From Rhodovulum kholense (GTDB lineage: Bacteria; Pseudomonadota; Alphaproteobacteria; Rhodobacterales; Rhodobacteraceae): DNA of 64,000 bases. The notes under the pieces are model-generated. The model was given only the letters and a program-made list of their open reading frames with translations. It ran no database searches and had not been told where the DNA came from. Numbering within the stretch: position 1 is the stretch's first letter; each line of letters begins with the position of its first letter. Positions 3,952-43,263 of the stretch are shown here, one piece after another. The stretch covers positions 62,001 to 126,000 of the forward strand of contig NZ_QAYC01000007.1 in NCBI RefSeq assembly GCF_003053725.1, given 5' to 3'. The position numbers and the translations under genes were made by a program.

Positions 3952-5247
<1,296 letters not shown>

Positions 5248-5254
5248 GCCTGCC

Positions 5255-5284
5255 GTCCAGGCGCCTGCCGAAGGCGTTCTGGAC
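5255..5284 (+). terminator. Hairpin downstream of glyA
   Basis: GTCCAG-g-CGCCT pairs with AGGCG-tt-CTGGAC starting 8 nt after the glyA stop. The stem is about 11 bp with a small internal bulge and a 5-nt loop. No U-run follows, as is common for such GC-rich hairpins. Confidence 0.6.
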
Positions 5285-5665
5285 GGGCCTTCCCCGTCCG
5301 ATGACCGGCGGGCAAGTGCCGGACCGGACCTCTGCGACCCTGGCCGTTCTTGCCGGCCGGTCGTCCGATCGGGGTCGAGCTGAACCTTTATTTTGAAACG
5401 CCTGCGGCCCTTTCAGGGGCCGCGCCCGTGTCGCCTATTGGCCCAACAAGGCCCGAGGACGCGTGTCACGCGGCGCAACGGCAGTCTCACGACCGACGCT
5501 CTGGCCTGTCAGACGATCCGATCCATCGGCGGGTCGTTGAGGGCAAAATCGGCGCTTAGGAAGACGCTGAAGCTTCGGCACGTCCCTCGGCCAACGACAC
5601 CGGCCGGACCCGCGCCGGAAGGAGGGTCCGACGTCACGGGGCGGACCGGCACGGCCCCCCGAAGG
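5285..5665. other. Non-coding gap between convergent glyA and hisG
   Basis: No convincing gene is seen. Two inverted repeats are present: GCGGCCC (5404-5410) with GGGCCGC (5417-5423), which on the minus strand is followed by an A/T-rich stretch and could terminate hisG transcription, and CGGACCC (5605-5611) with GGGTCCG (5624-5630). Short open frames here have no start context and no recognisable sequence. Confidence 0.4.
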
Positions 5666-6364
5666 TCAGCGCCCCAGCCCCAGACGGTCCAGAAGCTCGC
5701 GCAGGTTCACGCGGTCCGCGTCGCTGTACTCGGCCGAGCGCGACTTGAAAAGCGTCGCCTGGCTGCGGTGGATCAACCCGTCGGACAATATCTTCAGGTG
5801 ATTGGCCCGCAGCGTCTCGCCGGTCGAGGTGATATCGGCGATGGCTTCGGCGGTCAGGTTCTTGACCGTGCCCTCGGTCGCCCCCTGACTGTCGACCAGC
5901 TGATAGTCGGCCACGCCCGCATCGCGCAGGAAGACCCGGACCAGCCGGTGATACTTGGTCGCGATCCGCAGCCGGTGGCCATGGGCGGCCCGGAAGGCCG
6001 CCGCCGCCGCGTCGAGATCGTCCAGCGTGTCGACATCGGCCCAGCAGCGCGGCACCGCGATGATCAGATCGGCATAGCCGAAGCCCATCGGTTCGAGCGC
6101 CAGCACCCGATGTTCCCAGTCGGCGATCCGTTCCTGTACCAGATCGGACCCGGTCACGCCCAGATGGATTCGCCCCGAAGCCAGCTCGCGCGGGATCTCG
6201 CCCGCCGACAGCAGCATCAGTTCGATCCCCTCGACGCCCTCGACCGCGCCCGAATACTCGCGCTCGGACCCGGTGCGGGCGATAGAGATGCCCCGCTCGG
6301 CGAACCAGTCGAAGGTCTTTTCCATCAGCCGGCCCTTGGAGGGCACCCCGAGTTTCAGCGTCAT
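5666..6364 (-). CDS. hisG: ATP phosphoribosyltransferase, short form (catalytic subunit)
   Basis: First step of histidine biosynthesis: ATP plus PRPP gives phosphoribosyl-ATP. The 232-residue length is that of the short HisG lacking the C-terminal ACT-like regulatory domain, which therefore needs HisZ. Visible features are the N-terminal KLGVPSKGRL strand, GVTGSDLV, and the PRPP-binding region DSQGATEGTVKNLTAEAIAD. The start ATG (6364) overlaps the stop of hisZ (ATGA), so subunits are translationally coupled. Gene order hisS-hisZ-hisG runs on the minus strand. Confidence 0.96.
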   Translation of the reverse strand: MTLKLGVPSKGRLMEKTFDWFAERGISIARTGSEREYSGAVEGVEGIELMLLSAGEIPRELASGRIHLGVTGSDLVQERIADWEHRVLALEPMGFGYADLIIAVPRCWADVDTLDDLDAAAAAFRAAHGHRLRIATKYHRLVRVFLRDAGVADYQLVDSQGATEGTVKNLTAEAIADITSTGETLRANHLKILSDGLIHRSQATLFKSRSAEYSDADRVNLRELLDRLGLGR

Positions 6365-37286: not shown

Positions 37287-38105
37287 CTAGCCGCCGGTCA
37301 GCGCGGTGCAGGGGTCACCACGCTCGGCCGCCCCCGTGACCAGCCAGTAGTCATAGGGCGGAGTGCCCGTCGCGGCCCCCTCGAGCTGGCCGACAGAGAT
37401 CAGCCGGGCGCCCTCGGCAACCCGGGCAAAGGCCGCGGGCAGGCCCCAGTCGGTCCGGGCATGGCCGTTGCCCGCGATCACCGCGACCGGCCCGCCGGTG
37501 TCGTCCAGCGCCTGCCGCGCGGCCCGGGCCAGCGCGGCATCGCGCAGCCGCTGTGCCTCGACCATGCCGGGCAGAAGATGGTCGGGAAGCGCGTTGCAAT
37601 GGGCCTCGCGCTGATCGTTGATCCGTTCTTCGCGTTCGGCCTCGGGCAGCGGGTCGGTCAGACCATAGGTCGCGGCATCGGCCCCGAAGACGGCGGCCGC
37701 CCCTTCGGTCACGGCCCGGCGGACCTCGTCGCGCGGCAATGCCGCGCCATAGACCCTTGCCTCGGGCGCGGCCGAGAAAATCGGGAAATACATCGCGAAA
37801 TCGGGCCAGCCCGATGCTTCCCAGCCCAGCGCCTGGCCCAGTGCCACGCCGTCGAGACGAAGCCCCGGCGTCACCTTCGCAGCCTGGTCCGGCGTCAGCA
37901 TCTCGAAGACCAGAGCCTTCGGCGCCAGCGCCCTGACGGCCGCAGCCTGATTGGCATGCTGGTCGGGGTTGTCATGGGTCTCGCCCAGCACCACCACATC
38001 GGCGGCAGGCAGCGAGGAGAAAGCCGCCGAGCCGATTTCCTCGGCGCCGGCGGCATGGGCGGTCAGGGCCGCGGCCAGCGCGGCGATTCTTGCAACATGT
38101 CTCAC
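37287..38105 (-). CDS. ChaN-like haem-binding/Tiki superfamily secreted protein
   Basis: 272 residues from a GTG start at 38105 that overlaps the rpoH stop. Signal peptide (RIAALAAALTAHAAGA) without a lipobox Cys at the cleavage site. DVVVLGETHDNPDQH near residue 40 and AVIAGNGHARTDWGLP near 215 are the conserved GETHD and GxGH motifs of ChaN (DUF399). ChaN binds haem in Campylobacter; the Tiki relatives are metalloproteases, so either function is possible. Coupling to a heat-shock sigma gene is unusual. Confidence 0.82.
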   Translation of the reverse strand: MRHVARIAALAAALTAHAAGAEEIGSAAFSSLPAADVVVLGETHDNPDQHANQAAAVRALAPKALVFEMLTPDQAAKVTPGLRLDGVALGQALGWEASGWPDFAMYFPIFSAAPEARVYGAALPRDEVRRAVTEGAAAVFGADAATYGLTDPLPEAEREERINDQREAHCNALPDHLLPGMVEAQRLRDAALARAARQALDDTGGPVAVIAGNGHARTDWGLPAAFARVAEGARLISVGQLEGAATGTPPYDYWLVTGAAERGDPCTALTGG

Positions 38106-38980
38106 GCCAGGAAGTGAAGCACCTCGGGCGACTGGGCTTCAAGGCTCTTGCGCATCTTGCCGAAGGCCGCGGCCTCTAGCTGACGCACCCGCTCTTTGGA
38201 CAGGCCAAGCTCGTTGCCGAGGCTTTCCAGCGTGCGGGGGTCGTCGCGCAGCTTGCGTTCCTTGACGATGAAGCGTTCGCGGTCGTTCAGCTGGCCCATG
38301 GCATGCACCAGCCAGCCGCGCAGTTGCGCCCGGTCGCGCCCCTCCTCGACCAGTTCGGCTGCCTGCGCGCTGTTATCCTCGATGGTCTCGATCCATTCGC
38401 GCCCCTCCTCGTCGGTGGATTGCGAGGCGTTCAGCGAGAAATCGGACCCCGACAGCCGGCCCTCCATCATCTCGACATCCTGCAAGGGCACGCCGACCTC
38501 GGAGGCGATCATCTGGCGCAGCTGGTGGCGATCGAGCGACTCTCCCCGCCCCGCCGCCTCGCGTTCCAGTCGGGCCTGAACCCGGCGCATGTTGAAGAAC
38601 AGCGATTTCTGACTTGAGGTCGACCCGGTCCGGACCATCGACCAGTTCCGCATCACGTAGTCCTGGATCGAGGCCTTGATCCACCAGACCGCATAGGTCG
38701 AAAAGCGCACGCCCCGGTCAGGGTCGAACTTGTCGGCCGCCTTCATCAGGCCAAGGCTCGCCTCCTGGATCAGGTCGTTCATCGGCGCGCCGTAACGCTT
38801 GAATTTTGCCGCCATCGAGATCGCCAGCCGCATATAGGCCGTGATCAGGCGGTGAAGGGCTGCCTCGTCACGTTCGTCGCGCCAGGCATAGGCAAGCTTC
38901 AGTTCGGTCTCGGCGTCCAGAAGCTCCGCCTTCATCGCCTGACGCGACAGCGTGTTCGCATCGAATCCATCAAATGCCAT
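38102..38980 (-). CDS. rpoH: RNA polymerase sigma-32 factor (RpoHII-like)
   Basis: 292 residues. Region 2.1-2.4 shows AYMRLAISMAAKFKRYG, DLIQEASLGLMKA and RFSTYAVWWIKASIQDYVMR. The RpoH box is QKSLFFNMRR, slightly different from QKKLFFNLRR of canonical RpoHI. Region 4 has the helix-turn-helix LGLSKERVRQLEAAAFGKMR. In Rhodobacter, RpoHII is induced by RpoE under singlet-oxygen stress; the promoter-like sequence at 39019-39048 fits that regulation. The RpoHII assignment is inferred from the box variant and promoter. Confidence 0.88.
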   Translation of the reverse strand: MAFDGFDANTLSRQAMKAELLDAETELKLAYAWRDERDEAALHRLITAYMRLAISMAAKFKRYGAPMNDLIQEASLGLMKAADKFDPDRGVRFSTYAVWWIKASIQDYVMRNWSMVRTGSTSSQKSLFFNMRRVQARLEREAAGRGESLDRHQLRQMIASEVGVPLQDVEMMEGRLSGSDFSLNASQSTDEEGREWIETIEDNSAQAAELVEEGRDRAQLRGWLVHAMGQLNDRERFIVKERKLRDDPRTLESLGNELGLSKERVRQLEAAAFGKMRKSLEAQSPEVLHFLA

Positions 38981-40118: not shown

Positions 40119-41630
40119 ATGGTGGCCCGGGCCTATACGGTGGCTTTCGACGGCATCGAGGCACAGATCGTCGAGGTGCAATGCGCGGTCGCCCCCGGGC
40201 TTCCCGCCTTTTCAGTGGTGGGCCTCCCCGACAAGGCGGTCAGCGAGGCCCGCGACCGGCTGCGCGCGGCGCTGGCGGCAATGGGCGTGGCGCTGCCCTC
40301 GAAGCGGATCACGGTCAATCTCTCGCCCGCCGATCTGCCGAAAGTGGGGTCGCATTTCGACCTGCCCATCGCAGTGGCGCTGCTGGCCGCGCTCGAGGTC
40401 ATCCCCCGCGACATGGCCGAAGGGGTGGTGGCCCTGGGCGAGCTGTCGCTCGACGGGCGGCTGGTGCCGGTGATCGGGGCGCTGCCCGCGGCGATGGCCG
40501 CCGCCGAAGCCGACCGGGCGCTTTTATGTCCGCGCGCCTGCGGCGCCGAGGCGGCCTGGGTCGGCGCGACCCAGGTGCTGGCCGCGCCCGATCTCGCCTC
40601 GGTGGTGCGCCATTTCACCGGCCAGGCCCCTCTGGCCCCGGCCGAACCGGGCGAGGTCCAGCCGGACGCGCCGACGCTCGATCTGGCCGAGGTCAAGGGC
40701 CAGGAACGCGCCAAGCGCGCGCTCGAGATCGCCGCGGCGGGCCGACATCACCTGCTTCTGGTCGGCGAACCCGGCTCGGGCAAGTCGATGCTGGCCGCGC
40801 GGATCCCGGGCCTTCTGCCACCGCTGTCGCCGACAGAGGCGCTTGAAACCTCGATGATCCATTCGCTGGCGGGACTGCTGGACGAGGGCGGCATCTCGCG
40901 CCAGCGCCCGTTTCGCGACCCGCATCACACCGCGTCGGTGGCCGCCATTGTGGGCGGCGGGCGCGGTGCCGGACCGGGTGAAATCAGTCTGGCCCATAAC
41001 GGCGTGCTGTTCATGGACGAGTTTCCCGAATTTCCGCGTCAGGTGCTGGACACGCTGCGCCAGCCGATCGAGACCGGTGAGGTCGTGATCGCCCGCGCCA
41101 ATGCCCATACGCGCTATCCCTGCCGCTTCCTGCTGGTCGCGGCGGCAAACCCCTGCAAATGCGGCTATCTCGCCGACCCGTCCCGAGCCTGCGCCCGCGT
41201 GCCCCAGTGCGGCGAGGACTACCTTGGCCGGATCTCGGGTCCGCTGATGGACCGGTTCGACCTGCGCGTCGAGGTGCCGCCGGTCGCGTTCCGCGACCTC
41301 GACCTGCCCGCTTCGGGCGAAAGCTCTGCCACCGTGGCGGCCCGGGTCGCCACCGCCCGCGCCCGGCAAACCGCGCGTTTCGAGGCGCATCCCCGGGTGC
41401 GAGTGAACGCCGAGGCAGAGGGAGCGCTGCTCGACGAGATCGCAACGCCCGATGCCGACGGGCGCGCGCTGCTTTTGCGGGCGGCAGAGCGGTTCCGGCT
41501 GACCGCGCGCGGCTATCACCGCGTGTTGCGCGTCGCCCGGACCATCGCCGATCTCGACGGCGCCCAGCAGGTTGCGCGGCCCCATGTCGCCGAGGCCGTC
41601 GGCTTTCGTCTGGCCGTCGGCGACAGCTAG
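40119..41630 (+). CDS. comM: YifB/ComM family Mg-chelatase-like AAA ATPase
   Basis: 503 residues. N-terminal ribosomal S5-like domain (GLPDKAVSEARDRLRAAL), then AAA+ Walker A GEPGSGKSML, the Mg-chelatase-type segments RPFRDPHHTASVAAIVGGG, and HNGVLFMDEFPEFPRQVLD as Walker B, plus a Cys cluster (CKCGYLADPSRACARVPQC). ComM promotes branch migration during natural transformation recombination in other bacteria. The gene is followed by a hairpin at 41656-41677. Confidence 0.93.
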   Translation: MVARAYTVAFDGIEAQIVEVQCAVAPGLPAFSVVGLPDKAVSEARDRLRAALAAMGVALPSKRITVNLSPADLPKVGSHFDLPIAVALLAALEVIPRDMAEGVVALGELSLDGRLVPVIGALPAAMAAAEADRALLCPRACGAEAAWVGATQVLAAPDLASVVRHFTGQAPLAPAEPGEVQPDAPTLDLAEVKGQERAKRALEIAAAGRHHLLLVGEPGSGKSMLAARIPGLLPPLSPTEALETSMIHSLAGLLDEGGISRQRPFRDPHHTASVAAIVGGGRGAGPGEISLAHNGVLFMDEFPEFPRQVLDTLRQPIETGEVVIARANAHTRYPCRFLLVAAANPCKCGYLADPSRACARVPQCGEDYLGRISGPLMDRFDLRVEVPPVAFRDLDLPASGESSATVAARVATARARQTARFEAHPRVRVNAEAEGALLDEIATPDADGRALLLRAAERFRLTARGYHRVLRVARTIADLDGAQQVARPHVAEAVGFRLAVGDS

Positions 41631-41655
41631 AGGGCCGCCGATGCTTGCGCCAAGG

Positions 41656-41677
41656 GTCACGATCCCTTGATCGTGGC
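41656..41677 (+). terminator. Hairpin downstream of comM
   Basis: CACGATC-cctt-GATCGTG (7-bp perfect stem, extended by a G-T and a G-C pair), 25 nt after the comM stop, followed by ATTT. The next 50 nt hold an 8-bp inverted repeat TTTGCAGG/CCTGCAAA (41679-41729) that may be a control site for the next gene. Confidence 0.5.
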
Positions 41678-41750
41678 ATTTGCAGGAACCCTGCGGCACC
41701 CGGGTTGTTGACTCGGTCGAACCTGCAAACATCGAAGGAAGGATGTCACG

Positions 41751-42203
41751 ATGACCGACAGACATGGCCTCATGACCGACAACCCCACCCCGCTGTCGAG
41801 CCGGTTCGGCTGGCCGCTGCTGAGCAATCGCAAACCCGATGTCGAGCTGGACAAGGTCCGCGATTACCCGCTGTCAGACGCGCTGAACCTGCCATTGCTG
41901 AGCCAGAAACAGGGCTCGTCGACCGAGCTGATGACCGACAGCCCCACCCCGTTTTCCAGCCGGTTCGGCTGGCCGCTGCTCAGCGGGCGCCGCTCCGACC
42001 TCGCGCTGATGACCGACAATCCGACGCCGTTCTCGGCCGCCCTGGGGCTGCCGCTTCTCAGCAAAAGCGAAACCAATGTCGGGACGGACCCGAAAGGCGG
42101 CAGCACCTCGCACCGGCCCTGGACCGCACGCCAGGGTTCCGGCTCGGACGGTCCGGTCGCGAAATTCTTCCGGCAGATCGTCACCGGCGAAGTCCAGAAG
42201 TGA
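41751..42203 (+). CDS. Unrecognised four-repeat protein with MTDxPTPxS...PLLS motif
   Basis: 150 residues, no family recognised. Four units end in PLLS at residues 25, 51, 78 and 104, a 26/27/26-residue period. Units 1, 3 and 4 carry the full 19-residue block, for example LMTDNPTPLSSRFGWPLLS at 7-25; unit 2 (33-51, ending SDALNLPLLS) has lost its front half. The spacers are charged and variable. The C-terminus (about 108-150) is Gly/Ser-rich and ends with an amphipathic KFFRQIVTGE segment. AAGGAAGG lies 8 nt before ATG 41751. No signal peptide or cysteine. It could be a scaffold, a multi-copy peptide precursor or a repeat adaptor. Convergent with gshB. Confidence 0.75.
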   Translation: MTDRHGLMTDNPTPLSSRFGWPLLSNRKPDVELDKVRDYPLSDALNLPLLSQKQGSSTELMTDSPTPFSSRFGWPLLSGRRSDLALMTDNPTPFSAALGLPLLSKSETNVGTDPKGGSTSHRPWTARQGSGSDGPVAKFFRQIVTGEVQK

Positions 42204-42208
42204 AAGGC

Positions 42209-42239
42209 AGGCGATGCGGGGTTCAGCCCCGCTTCGCCT
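42209..42239. terminator. Bidirectional hairpin containing the gshB stop codon
   Basis: AGGCGA-t-GCGGGG pairs with CCCCGC-t-TCGCCT (12 bp plus one mismatch, 5-nt loop). It begins 6 nt after the repeat-protein stop, and the gshB stop (42223-42225) lies in its loop region. Confidence 0.65.
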
Positions 42240-43164
42240 CGATCGCCTCCCAGATCCGGGCGGCGATATTGACCTTGTCGAAGCGCTCCAGCTCCTGGAT
42301 GCCGGTGGGCGAGGTCACGTTGATCTCGGTCAGATGATCGCCGATCACGTCAATACCCACGAAAACCTGACCGGCCTCCTTCAGCGTCGGGCCGATGGCG
42401 GCACAGATCTCCAGATCGCGGGGCGTCAGATCCGCCCGTTCGGCACGGCCCCCCACATGCATGTTCGACCGGGTCTCGCCCTCGGCCGGGACCCGGTTGA
42501 TGGCTCCGACCGGCGCGCCGTCGACCAGAATGACGCGCTTGTCGCCCTTGCGAACCGCAGGCAGGAATTTCTGCGCGATCAGCGGCTCGCGGCTTAATCC
42601 CGAGAAAAGCTCATGCAACGAGGCCAGGTTGCGATCGTCGGGGTCGAGCCGGAAGATCCCGGCCCCGCCATTGCCATAGAGCGGCTTGAGGATGATGTCT
42701 CCGTGCAGGTCCTTGAAGGCGCGCAGGGTTGCCAGATCGCGGGCGATCACGGTCGGAGGAATAAGCTCGGGGAAACGAAGAACCAGAAGCTTTTCCGGAA
42801 AATTGCGCACCCAGAACGGATCGTTCACGACGAGGGTGCCAGGCGCCAGATGTTCCAGAAGATGCGTTGTGGTGATGTAGCCCATATCGAAGGGCGGGTC
42901 CTGCCGCAGCCAGACGACATCATAGGCGCCAAGATCGACCTCCTGCTCCGGCCCCAGTGTGAAATGATCACCCCGCACCCGGCGGACCTCCAGCGGCCAG
43001 CCCCGCGCCATGACGCGCCCGTCATTCCAGAAAAGCCGGTCTGGGGTATAGTAGAACAGGCTGTGCCCGCGCGCCTGCGCCTCTTCAGCAATCCTGAACG
43101 TGCTGTCCGCGTCGATATTGACGGCCCCGATCGGGTCCATCTGAATGGCAACCTTCAACGGCAT
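42223..43164 (-). CDS. gshB: Glutathione synthetase
   Basis: ATP-grasp ligase joining gamma-glutamylcysteine and glycine, 313 residues. It begins [23 protein letters not shown], as in bacterial GshB. Further motifs are [37 protein letters not shown] (ATP binding) and [21 protein letters not shown] near the C-terminus. Upstream in-frame extension to 43257 is low-complexity and rejected. It supplies glutathione for the transferase encoded at 39200. Confidence 0.96.
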
Positions 43165-43263
43165 CTGGTGCTCCCTCGCCCGGCCTTCCCCACCGCCGCC
43201 CGTCGCCCGGGCGCCACGGCGCCCGCTCTGGATGGCCGAGCCACCAAGGATTTGCAACCGCGC

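Follow-up and report, generated by a model that had tools for sequence, protein, structure and literature searches.

The window analysed here, a stretch of 64,000 nucleotides from Rhodovulum kholense, carries at 41751..42203 of the forward strand an open reading frame for a repeat protein (150 residues and a stop codon), which belongs to class A of the paralogues described below. A Shine-Dalgarno-like sequence, AAGGAAGG, lies at 41735..41742 (+), 8 nt 5' of the ATG, as an earlier sequence-only reading of this DNA had noticed. The upstream neighbour at 40119..41630 (+) is presumably a comM-like AAA ATPase gene, and the downstream convergent neighbour at 42223..43257 (-) is gshB for glutathione synthetase, a name taken from the earlier reading; their counterparts in locus L031 are 98% and 97% identical, respectively. 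Read by eye, the neighbours of the window gene were comM, gshB, glnD and an rpoH-like sigma factor gene, and no maturation or export gene was seen among them. The window gene is not adjacent to photosynthesis genes, having comM and gshB beside it, not pucBA or pucC. By eye, the gene at 38102-38980 (-), about 3 kb upstream of the repeat gene, encodes an RpoH-type heat-shock sigma factor.

The nearest named relative of this Rhodovulum is Rhodovulum visakhapatnamense, where an orthologue with 84% identity to the window protein lies between the same two neighbours (comM and gshB). Set against the 98% and 97% identity of comM and gshB, this value indicates that the window protein evolves faster, yet is constrained, and dN/dS between the window gene and this orthologue was 0.47. 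Upstream inverted repeats, reported before, are present, but they are weak: the scan found one at 41651-41664/41669-41682 with a 79% match, and a second of TTTGCAGG/CCTGCAAA at 41679-41686/41722-41729. A terminator shared with gshB had also been proposed; no terminator turned up between or beyond the ends of the two genes when 41550-42350 was scanned.

Repeat units and predicted properties of the window protein

The window protein contains four tandem units of 26/27 residues, and PLLS ends at residues 25, 51, 78 and 104, the same positions as in the earlier reading. Unit 1 (residues 8-33; 41772..41849, +; MTDNPTPLSSRFGWPLLSNRKPDVEL) and unit 3 (residues 61-86; 41931..42008, +) are of the W-type, while unit 2 (residues 34-60; 41850..41930, +; ALNLPLLS) and, in the window protein, unit 4 (residues 87-112; 42009..42086, +) are of the L-type. 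The unit cores begin at residues 13, 39, 66 and 92, so their spacing is 26, 27 and 26 residues. The 26-residue unit of the window gene can be written as [KM]TD[DN]PTP[LF]S-x-x-[MLF][GN]WPLLSxRKxNVEL. Over 143 units from Rhodovulum, the core reads T-P-[LF]-S-x-x-[MLF]-[GN]-W-P-L-L-S, in which the fixed Ser is partly owed to the regular expression that found the units.

Within the 18-residue core, units 1 and 3 share 16 residues, units 1/4 and 3/4 share 13, and unit 2 shares only 6-9 with the others. Unit 2 had been described as half degenerate, but simple decay does not account for it: among the other 8 proteins of class A, four (G005, G006, G007 and G008) also have the L-type core (LxLPLLS or LxLSLLS) in second place, the second unit of the remaining four being W-type. 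At the DNA level, repeats of 81 nt begin at 41769, 41928 and 42006, and the later copies are 80% and 68% identical to the first. The DNA repeats are thus visible as claimed, but their codons have diverged only in part, since units 1 and 3 have 14 of 18 codons in common. Selection on the peptide motif, which had been deduced from codon divergence, is better shown between species, where pairwise dN/dS ranged from 0.10 to 0.48 in 13 comparisons across classes A-D.

Behind the units, the C-terminal segment (42153..42200, +) has a predicted helix at residues 135-145 and a conserved end, FFRQIVTGEVQK. A segment of this kind, with the helix, is common to classes A and B, where its end follows F[FIL]R[QG]I[IVM]TGE[VP]QK, and both helix and end are absent from classes C and D. 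The hydrophobic moment of the helix was borderline in comparison with shuffled sequences (fractions 0.079 and 0.025). A membrane-binding amphipathic helix in the repeat core was considered and rejected, because its hydrophobic moment was no better than that of shuffles (0.42 and 0.74). The protein has no Cys and a GRAVY of -0.58. AlphaFold2 gave a mean pLDDT of 49 and no fold except the C-terminal helix; the alignment held only four sequences, which makes the low pLDDT weak evidence for disorder.

Neither Pfam nor NCBIfam contained a match to the window protein at E<=1, and searches of the PDB gave no convincing sequence match for the Rhodovulum repeat protein. A phage or plasmid origin was rejected: the window protein had no tblastn match in phages or plasmids, and a scan of viral contigs with class C found no relative.

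Paralogues in Rhodovulum

Using the window protein alone as query, we found full-length relatives in G005 (E 9e-81) and G006 (E 3e-42); two weak matches, in G031 and G052, were discarded because they read through stop codons. The class A profile matched all 16 Rhodovulum genomes, with 2-5 matches per genome, so that homologues with conserved repeats do exist. Unit HMM and synteny together told four paralogues, A-D, apart. Three or four of them occur in 14 of the 16 genomes and two in G010 and G014, the D copies of G012 and G013 being weak matches from the class A profile search only. The number of units, which the earlier reading had wished to see compared among relatives, varies from 1 to 5 across the classes.

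Class A has 9 members in its alignment (A2); among the 8 whose units were counted, seven have four units and one, that of G011, has five. Its locus is not conserved, being comM/gshB in the window's genome (G000) and R. visakhapatnamense and other genes elsewhere. Class B has 15 members, 12 of them with three units and 3 with two, and 14 of these genes adjoin the same dnaG-side gene. For class D, whose 11 members have one or two units, cbbY is close by in 9 cases; the names cbbY and dnaG-side gene are our own assignments and are presumed here. Of the 16 class C proteins, 15 have three units and one has two; in 15 of the 16 genomes, their gene is divergent from the LH2 antenna operon pucBAC. All 16 genomes contain four LHC-family genes, that is, one pucBA and one pufBA pair, and class C therefore adjoins the only LH2 operon. 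The best matches of the 16 class C proteins were at E 0.016 in Pfam and 0.03 in NCBIfam, with no family found in more than 3 members.

The intergenic region between class C and puc contains a palindrome, TGTCAACGnAGnCTKACA, in 14 of 16 genomes (a count made with no chance control), which we take to be of the PpsR type. No PpsR-type site (TGT-N12-ACA) was found upstream of the A, B and D genes scanned, including 8 class A genes. Within 200 nt upstream of class B genes, the pattern TTG-N18-21-CATNT occurred in 10 of 15 cases compared with 1.4% of random 200-nt stretches; the groES gene of the genome is not matched by this pattern and by eye has TTG-N19-CTATCT. The features used for this comparison came from the accessible part of a report on RpoH promoters (PMC3441632). 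The same pattern scan found no RpoH-like promoter upstream of the window gene and a match at only one of 8 class A genes. Judged from its pattern and conservation, the class B upstream region is an RpoH-like promoter with a conserved 5' leader, and some paralogues may accordingly act under stress.

Three further observations concern these genes. A strongly conserved region lies upstream of class B genes (L034:8435-8584 and equivalents), with CTTG-N-CCATCT at about -78 and TTTGGTGGACAGGATCAA just 5' of the start. Three class B proteins (L043:8448-8852, L048:7932-8303 and L057:5842-6219) have a tandem repeat of about 10 residues, TFTNPQVETK, before two normal units. At L064:5604-5981 of G011, about 2 kb from cbbY and at the site expected for class D, there is a four-unit repeat protein of a further type, which was kept outside classes A-D.

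Taken together, a motif kept across paralogues and species, a copy number that varies and a weak prediction of disorder support the repeated binding motif suggested by the sequence-only reading.

Repeat-tail proteins at puc loci

The family at first appeared to be restricted to Rhodovulum, and this reading was overturned by a class-wide search with the class B profile. Among 385 genomes of the Alphaproteobacteria, four outside Rhodovulum matched at E<=0.01. Three of them, from three different families, encode an N-domain of about 100 residues followed by a related repeat tail, and all three genes lie in or beside a puc locus. The fourth match (G549) is on the opposite strand of a long response-regulator ORF and was set aside as a chance match.

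LH2 loci were then sought with PucC, independently of the repeat protein. Of the same 385 genomes, 25 outside Rhodovulum had a PucC match and 13 loci were read at length; in the other 12 genomes, the best PucC locus had no LH2 alpha gene within about 1.5 kb. In 394 genomes of the family, taken as Rhodobacteraceae, with about one genome per genus, there were 52 non-Rhodovulum loci, all of which were read. Of 66 pucC loci, the Rhodovulum locus L035 included, 53 have the N-domain gene as judged by a domain HMM: 44 of 52 in the family, 9 of 13 in other families and 0 of 1 in Rhodovulum. Three of the four other-family loci lacking it contain a pucC paralogue but no LH2 gene. Wherever the gene occurs in Rhodobacteraceae loci (44 of 44), it lies 0-175 nt from pucC, measured between stop-to-stop ORFs.

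When loci outside Rhodovulum were counted only if an LH2 alpha gene lay no more than 3.5 kb from PucC, 60 remained, and 52 of these have the N-domain-plus-tail gene. It is missing at L171, L172, L173, L175, L185, L217, L221 and L133, at one of which (L221) the contig ends inside pucC; the gene is thus not essential for LH2. Two further loci, L098 with the gene and L170 without it, were left out of this count, as their alpha gene lies at a greater distance from pucC. L185 presumably has the LH2 of Cereibacter sphaeroides. The LH2 of Cereibacter sphaeroides is described as having no gamma subunit in PMC9618040.

The tails of the 54 proteins differ in length and regularity. Long complete tails of 242-253 residues occur in 11, with 8 units in eight proteins and 7 in three as counted by a regular expression; their array has the consensus FPRHARMANWPIPLISRRKPYTGS, and with two more tails cut by contig ends, 13 of the 54 belong to this group of the family. 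By eye, the long tails close with one further unit of the SxxFGxPT kind. The remaining tails are shorter and less regular, so the unit number generally does not equal the ring size, LH2 rings being usually octamers or nonamers according to the part of PMC12654162 available. In the other families, the tails have NPAPLSSLLGMxxLS alternating with SSFGLPLLS units. The heart that the units share is a hydrophobic residue, often followed by G, then W/F/L-P and L-[LI]-S. His is present in 72% of 95 long-tail units and absent from the Rhodovulum unit consensus; the His of the long-tail array is a possible pigment ligand.

To compare the Rhodovulum units with these tails, profiles were built from nine N-domain-plus-tail proteins (A6) and from 50 (A7). 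Profile-profile alignment with hhalign gave 98.8% (E 1.1e-16) for A6 against class A, the subfamily of the window protein, 97.9% (E 5.1e-13) against class C, 96.9% (E 1.3e-10) against class B, and 98.3% (E 2.6e-14) for A7 against class A, scores that may be inflated by repeats. When the Rhodovulum unit HMM was run against 10,603 ORFs of 65 non-Rhodovulum pucC loci, ranks 1-23 were all N-domain-plus-tail proteins, as were all 21 matches at E<=1e-3, while only 28 of the 54 such proteins were reached at E<=0.1. Controls with reversed units and 5 column permutations matched none of these proteins. An A6 search of 289 genomes of the Alphaproteobacteria gave nine matches at E<=1e-5, seven of them A6's own members at puc loci; the window gene was found at E 3.3e-10 as the sole match in its genome. 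Another match, in G505, is on a contig with bchG, bchP and def, whose ORFs were read by eye.

In the 16 Rhodovulum genomes, all 36 matches of the A7 profile were at model positions 107-223 of 224, that is, in the tail, from which it follows that the N-domain is absent from Rhodovulum (0 of 16). With the class C profile, no match was obtained beyond Rhodovulum in the 394 family genomes, though 44 carry the tailed gene, so the link rests on the other profiles and the profile-profile scores. The match to the puc-linked tails is no worse for class A units than for class C units. These profile comparisons show homology between the repeat unit of the window gene and the tails of a protein whose gene accompanies pucA and pucC in most of the alphaproteobacterial LH2 loci examined, a relation that is new here. 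The statement that no family like it is known holds for the curated libraries, since no Pfam or NCBIfam model convincingly covers the window protein or its puc-linked relatives, but a large family exists. On sequence grounds, the window gene belongs to this large family, which has no curated name, as a dispersed paralogue of a repeat protein linked to the LH2 antenna.

Searches of the PDB with A6 gave only chance-level matches. A whole N-domain protein had no match among plasmids, and a search with the C-terminal repeats of L187 gave no match either. The YflT domain (PF11181) matched 8 of 50 N-domain proteins weakly (best E 0.0013), and in one case with bits given the match was below the family cut-off (13.5 versus 26.2); the likeness is limited to the N-domain, a part that the window protein lacks. 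PucE, an extra 14-kDa LH-II polypeptide encoded in a puc operon of Rhodobacter capsulatus, could be a known member, and no description of it was found in the literature searched. The puc-linked repeat protein likewise had no description in that literature, in which subscription journals were mostly out of scope and which included accessible parts of PMC9230146, PMC6030561, PMC9618040, PMC12654162, PMC12817894, PMC10890935, PMC10949492 and PMC3176799. In the part of PMC10890935 available, the puc operon of Dinoroseobacter shibae is given as Dshi_2897-2900; going by tag count, these four locus tags would fit pucB, pucA, pucC and a repeat-tail gene.

Some loci have unusual arrangements. Downstream of one pucC there are two tandem N-domain-plus-repeat genes (L176:4175-4858 and 5069-6178), one with eight units and the other with a different tail. 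In L131 and L132, two LH2 alpha genes flank the repeat gene, in the order pucA, repeat protein, pucA and pucC. A gene that by eye resembles peptide deformylase (def) at L098:311-823, L099:6429-6977 and L232:6549-7178 adjoins pucC at two of these loci and lies near the N-domain gene at one. Carboxymethyl-Met 1 of LH2 alpha binds B800 according to the accessible part of PMC9618040, and for this reason a dedicated deformylase might be of interest.

Comparison with the gamma subunit and possible function

In PMC9618040, the gamma subunit of Rhodopseudomonas palustris (Rps. palustris) is described as an extended ribbon of six repeats, EYKGHSGHPLIKQEG, which has no secondary structure and lies on the outside of the LH2 ring near the cytoplasmic face. 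One repeat falls to each alpha/beta pair, six repeats to six pairs, and each Ser ligates a bacteriochlorophyll; by BLASTp, gamma was found there only in Rhodopseudomonas. Gamma (PDB 7zcu chain S) and the Rhodovulum protein are both short, with tandem repeats containing G-x-P-L-[IL]. Gamma is extended without secondary structure, and for the window protein disorder is weakly predicted from the four-sequence AlphaFold2 model; gamma is associated with LH2, and the Rhodovulum family is linked to LH2 genes. The repeat, however, has 16 residues in gamma (EYKGHSGHPLILKQEG) compared with 26/27 in the window protein. The bacteriochlorophyll-ligating Ser of gamma stands just before G, whereas the window units have F or L at this place: they read RFGWPLL, ALNLPLL, RFGWPLL and ALGLPLL, with no Ser just before G-x-P-L. 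A 91-residue gamma fragment scored -4.4 and -9.2 bits against the two unit HMMs, giving no detectable homology, and 1010 and 1043 of 2000 shuffles scored as well as gamma. Gamma was not found in 17 genomes of G731's family in a search run without a positive control.

From the tandem G-x-P-L-type repeats, the predicted disorder and the linkage to LH2 genes, we infer a gamma-like function. The likeness would be one of working and does not show the protein to be gamma, since homology in sequence was looked for and not found. As its relatives are usually encoded beside the LH2 genes, the window protein probably serves as a ribbon-like part that holds or tunes this antenna. That the window gene, as a paralogue of the LH2-linked repeat protein, itself encodes a gamma-like ribbon with one unit per alpha/beta pair is a reading, drawn by analogy, to which we give about even weight. 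The units would then form an extended and undulating ribbon along the cytoplasmic side of the LH2 ring, with one of them docking to each alpha/beta pair in the manner of Rps. palustris gamma. Contacts with the alpha/beta helices would be made through the hydrophobic face [MLF]xWPLL, and those with the lipid head groups through the charged spacers. The Rhodovulum proteins have units homologous to those of the puc-linked A6/A7 proteins and share the puc linkage through class C; unlike A6/A7 proteins, they lack the N-domain, have 1-5 units and occur as several paralogues per genome. Less firmly, we suppose that the ribbon in Rhodovulum may have been freed of the N-domain and then duplicated, and that the 1-5-unit proteins A-D, expressed from different promoters, may bind to the one type of LH2 and modulate its stability, size or pigment load. 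The A form of the window would contribute four units and a C-terminal amphipathic helix. Because class A lies away from puc and has no PpsR-type site, the partner of the window gene is less certain.

The puc-linked protein may instead be an assembly or quality-control factor for LH2 that works with PucC, its repeats serving as transient docking sites and not residing in the ring. The close spacing to pucC in 44 of 44 Rhodobacteraceae loci that have the gene, the weak resemblance of the N-domain to the stress domain YflT (8 of 50, best E 0.0013) and the many short, irregular tails would agree with such a role. The near-fixed length of the 11 long tails, at 7-8 units, suits a stoichiometric ring partner better, and Rhodovulum retains the repeats without the N-domain; we regard this alternative as unlikely overall, though still credible. 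It is also conceivable that Rhodovulum has co-opted A, B and D as stress or metabolic adaptors for another protein, leaving an antenna role to C only. The dnaG-side position of class B (14 of 15) and its RpoH-like promoter (10 of 15), the position of class D near cbbY (9 of 11) and the C-terminal helix found in A and B but not in C and D all point in this direction, and the fit of A units to the puc-linked tails, at least as good as that of C units, weakens the proposal, which we consider unlikely.

A generic disordered osmo- or stress-protectant of the hydrophilin type, with no specific partner, would explain the GRAVY of -0.58, the predicted disorder and the RpoH-like promoter of class B, but the W/P/L/L core conserved across species, the purifying selection and the strong puc linkage make it very improbable. 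The multi-core, RiPP-like peptide precursor considered in the earlier reading, which the repeated cores and variable spacers had suggested, can practically be dismissed, as the protein has no Cys, no maturation gene was seen by eye among the neighbours, and the relatives are fused to a conserved N-domain at puc loci beside antenna genes.

If the gamma-like reading is extended beyond the window, gamma-like ribbons would be a common and unrecognised part of alphaproteobacterial LH2, interchangeable in Rhodovulum, with the window gene encoding one of them; we put this forward tentatively and think it rather doubtful. Most LH2 operons would then encode a ribbon whose unit number, in one group, comes close to the number of alpha/beta pairs in the ring, and each unit would dock one pair and possibly an extra bacteriochlorophyll. 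Rhodovulum could retune its one LH2 type by exchanging one ribbon for another, these having 1-5 units and different promoters.

LH2 serves as a model antenna and is usually regarded as consisting of alpha, beta and pigments. Gamma is the one known ribbon and, in the part of PMC9618040 available, is reported only from Rhodopseudomonas. With a conserved repeat protein encoded beside pucC in 52 of 60 LH2 loci, a subunit or assembly partner may have been missed in many antennas, one that would bring a countable number of docking repeats. Such a component would be relevant to ring size, B800 content and unusual LH2 spectra.
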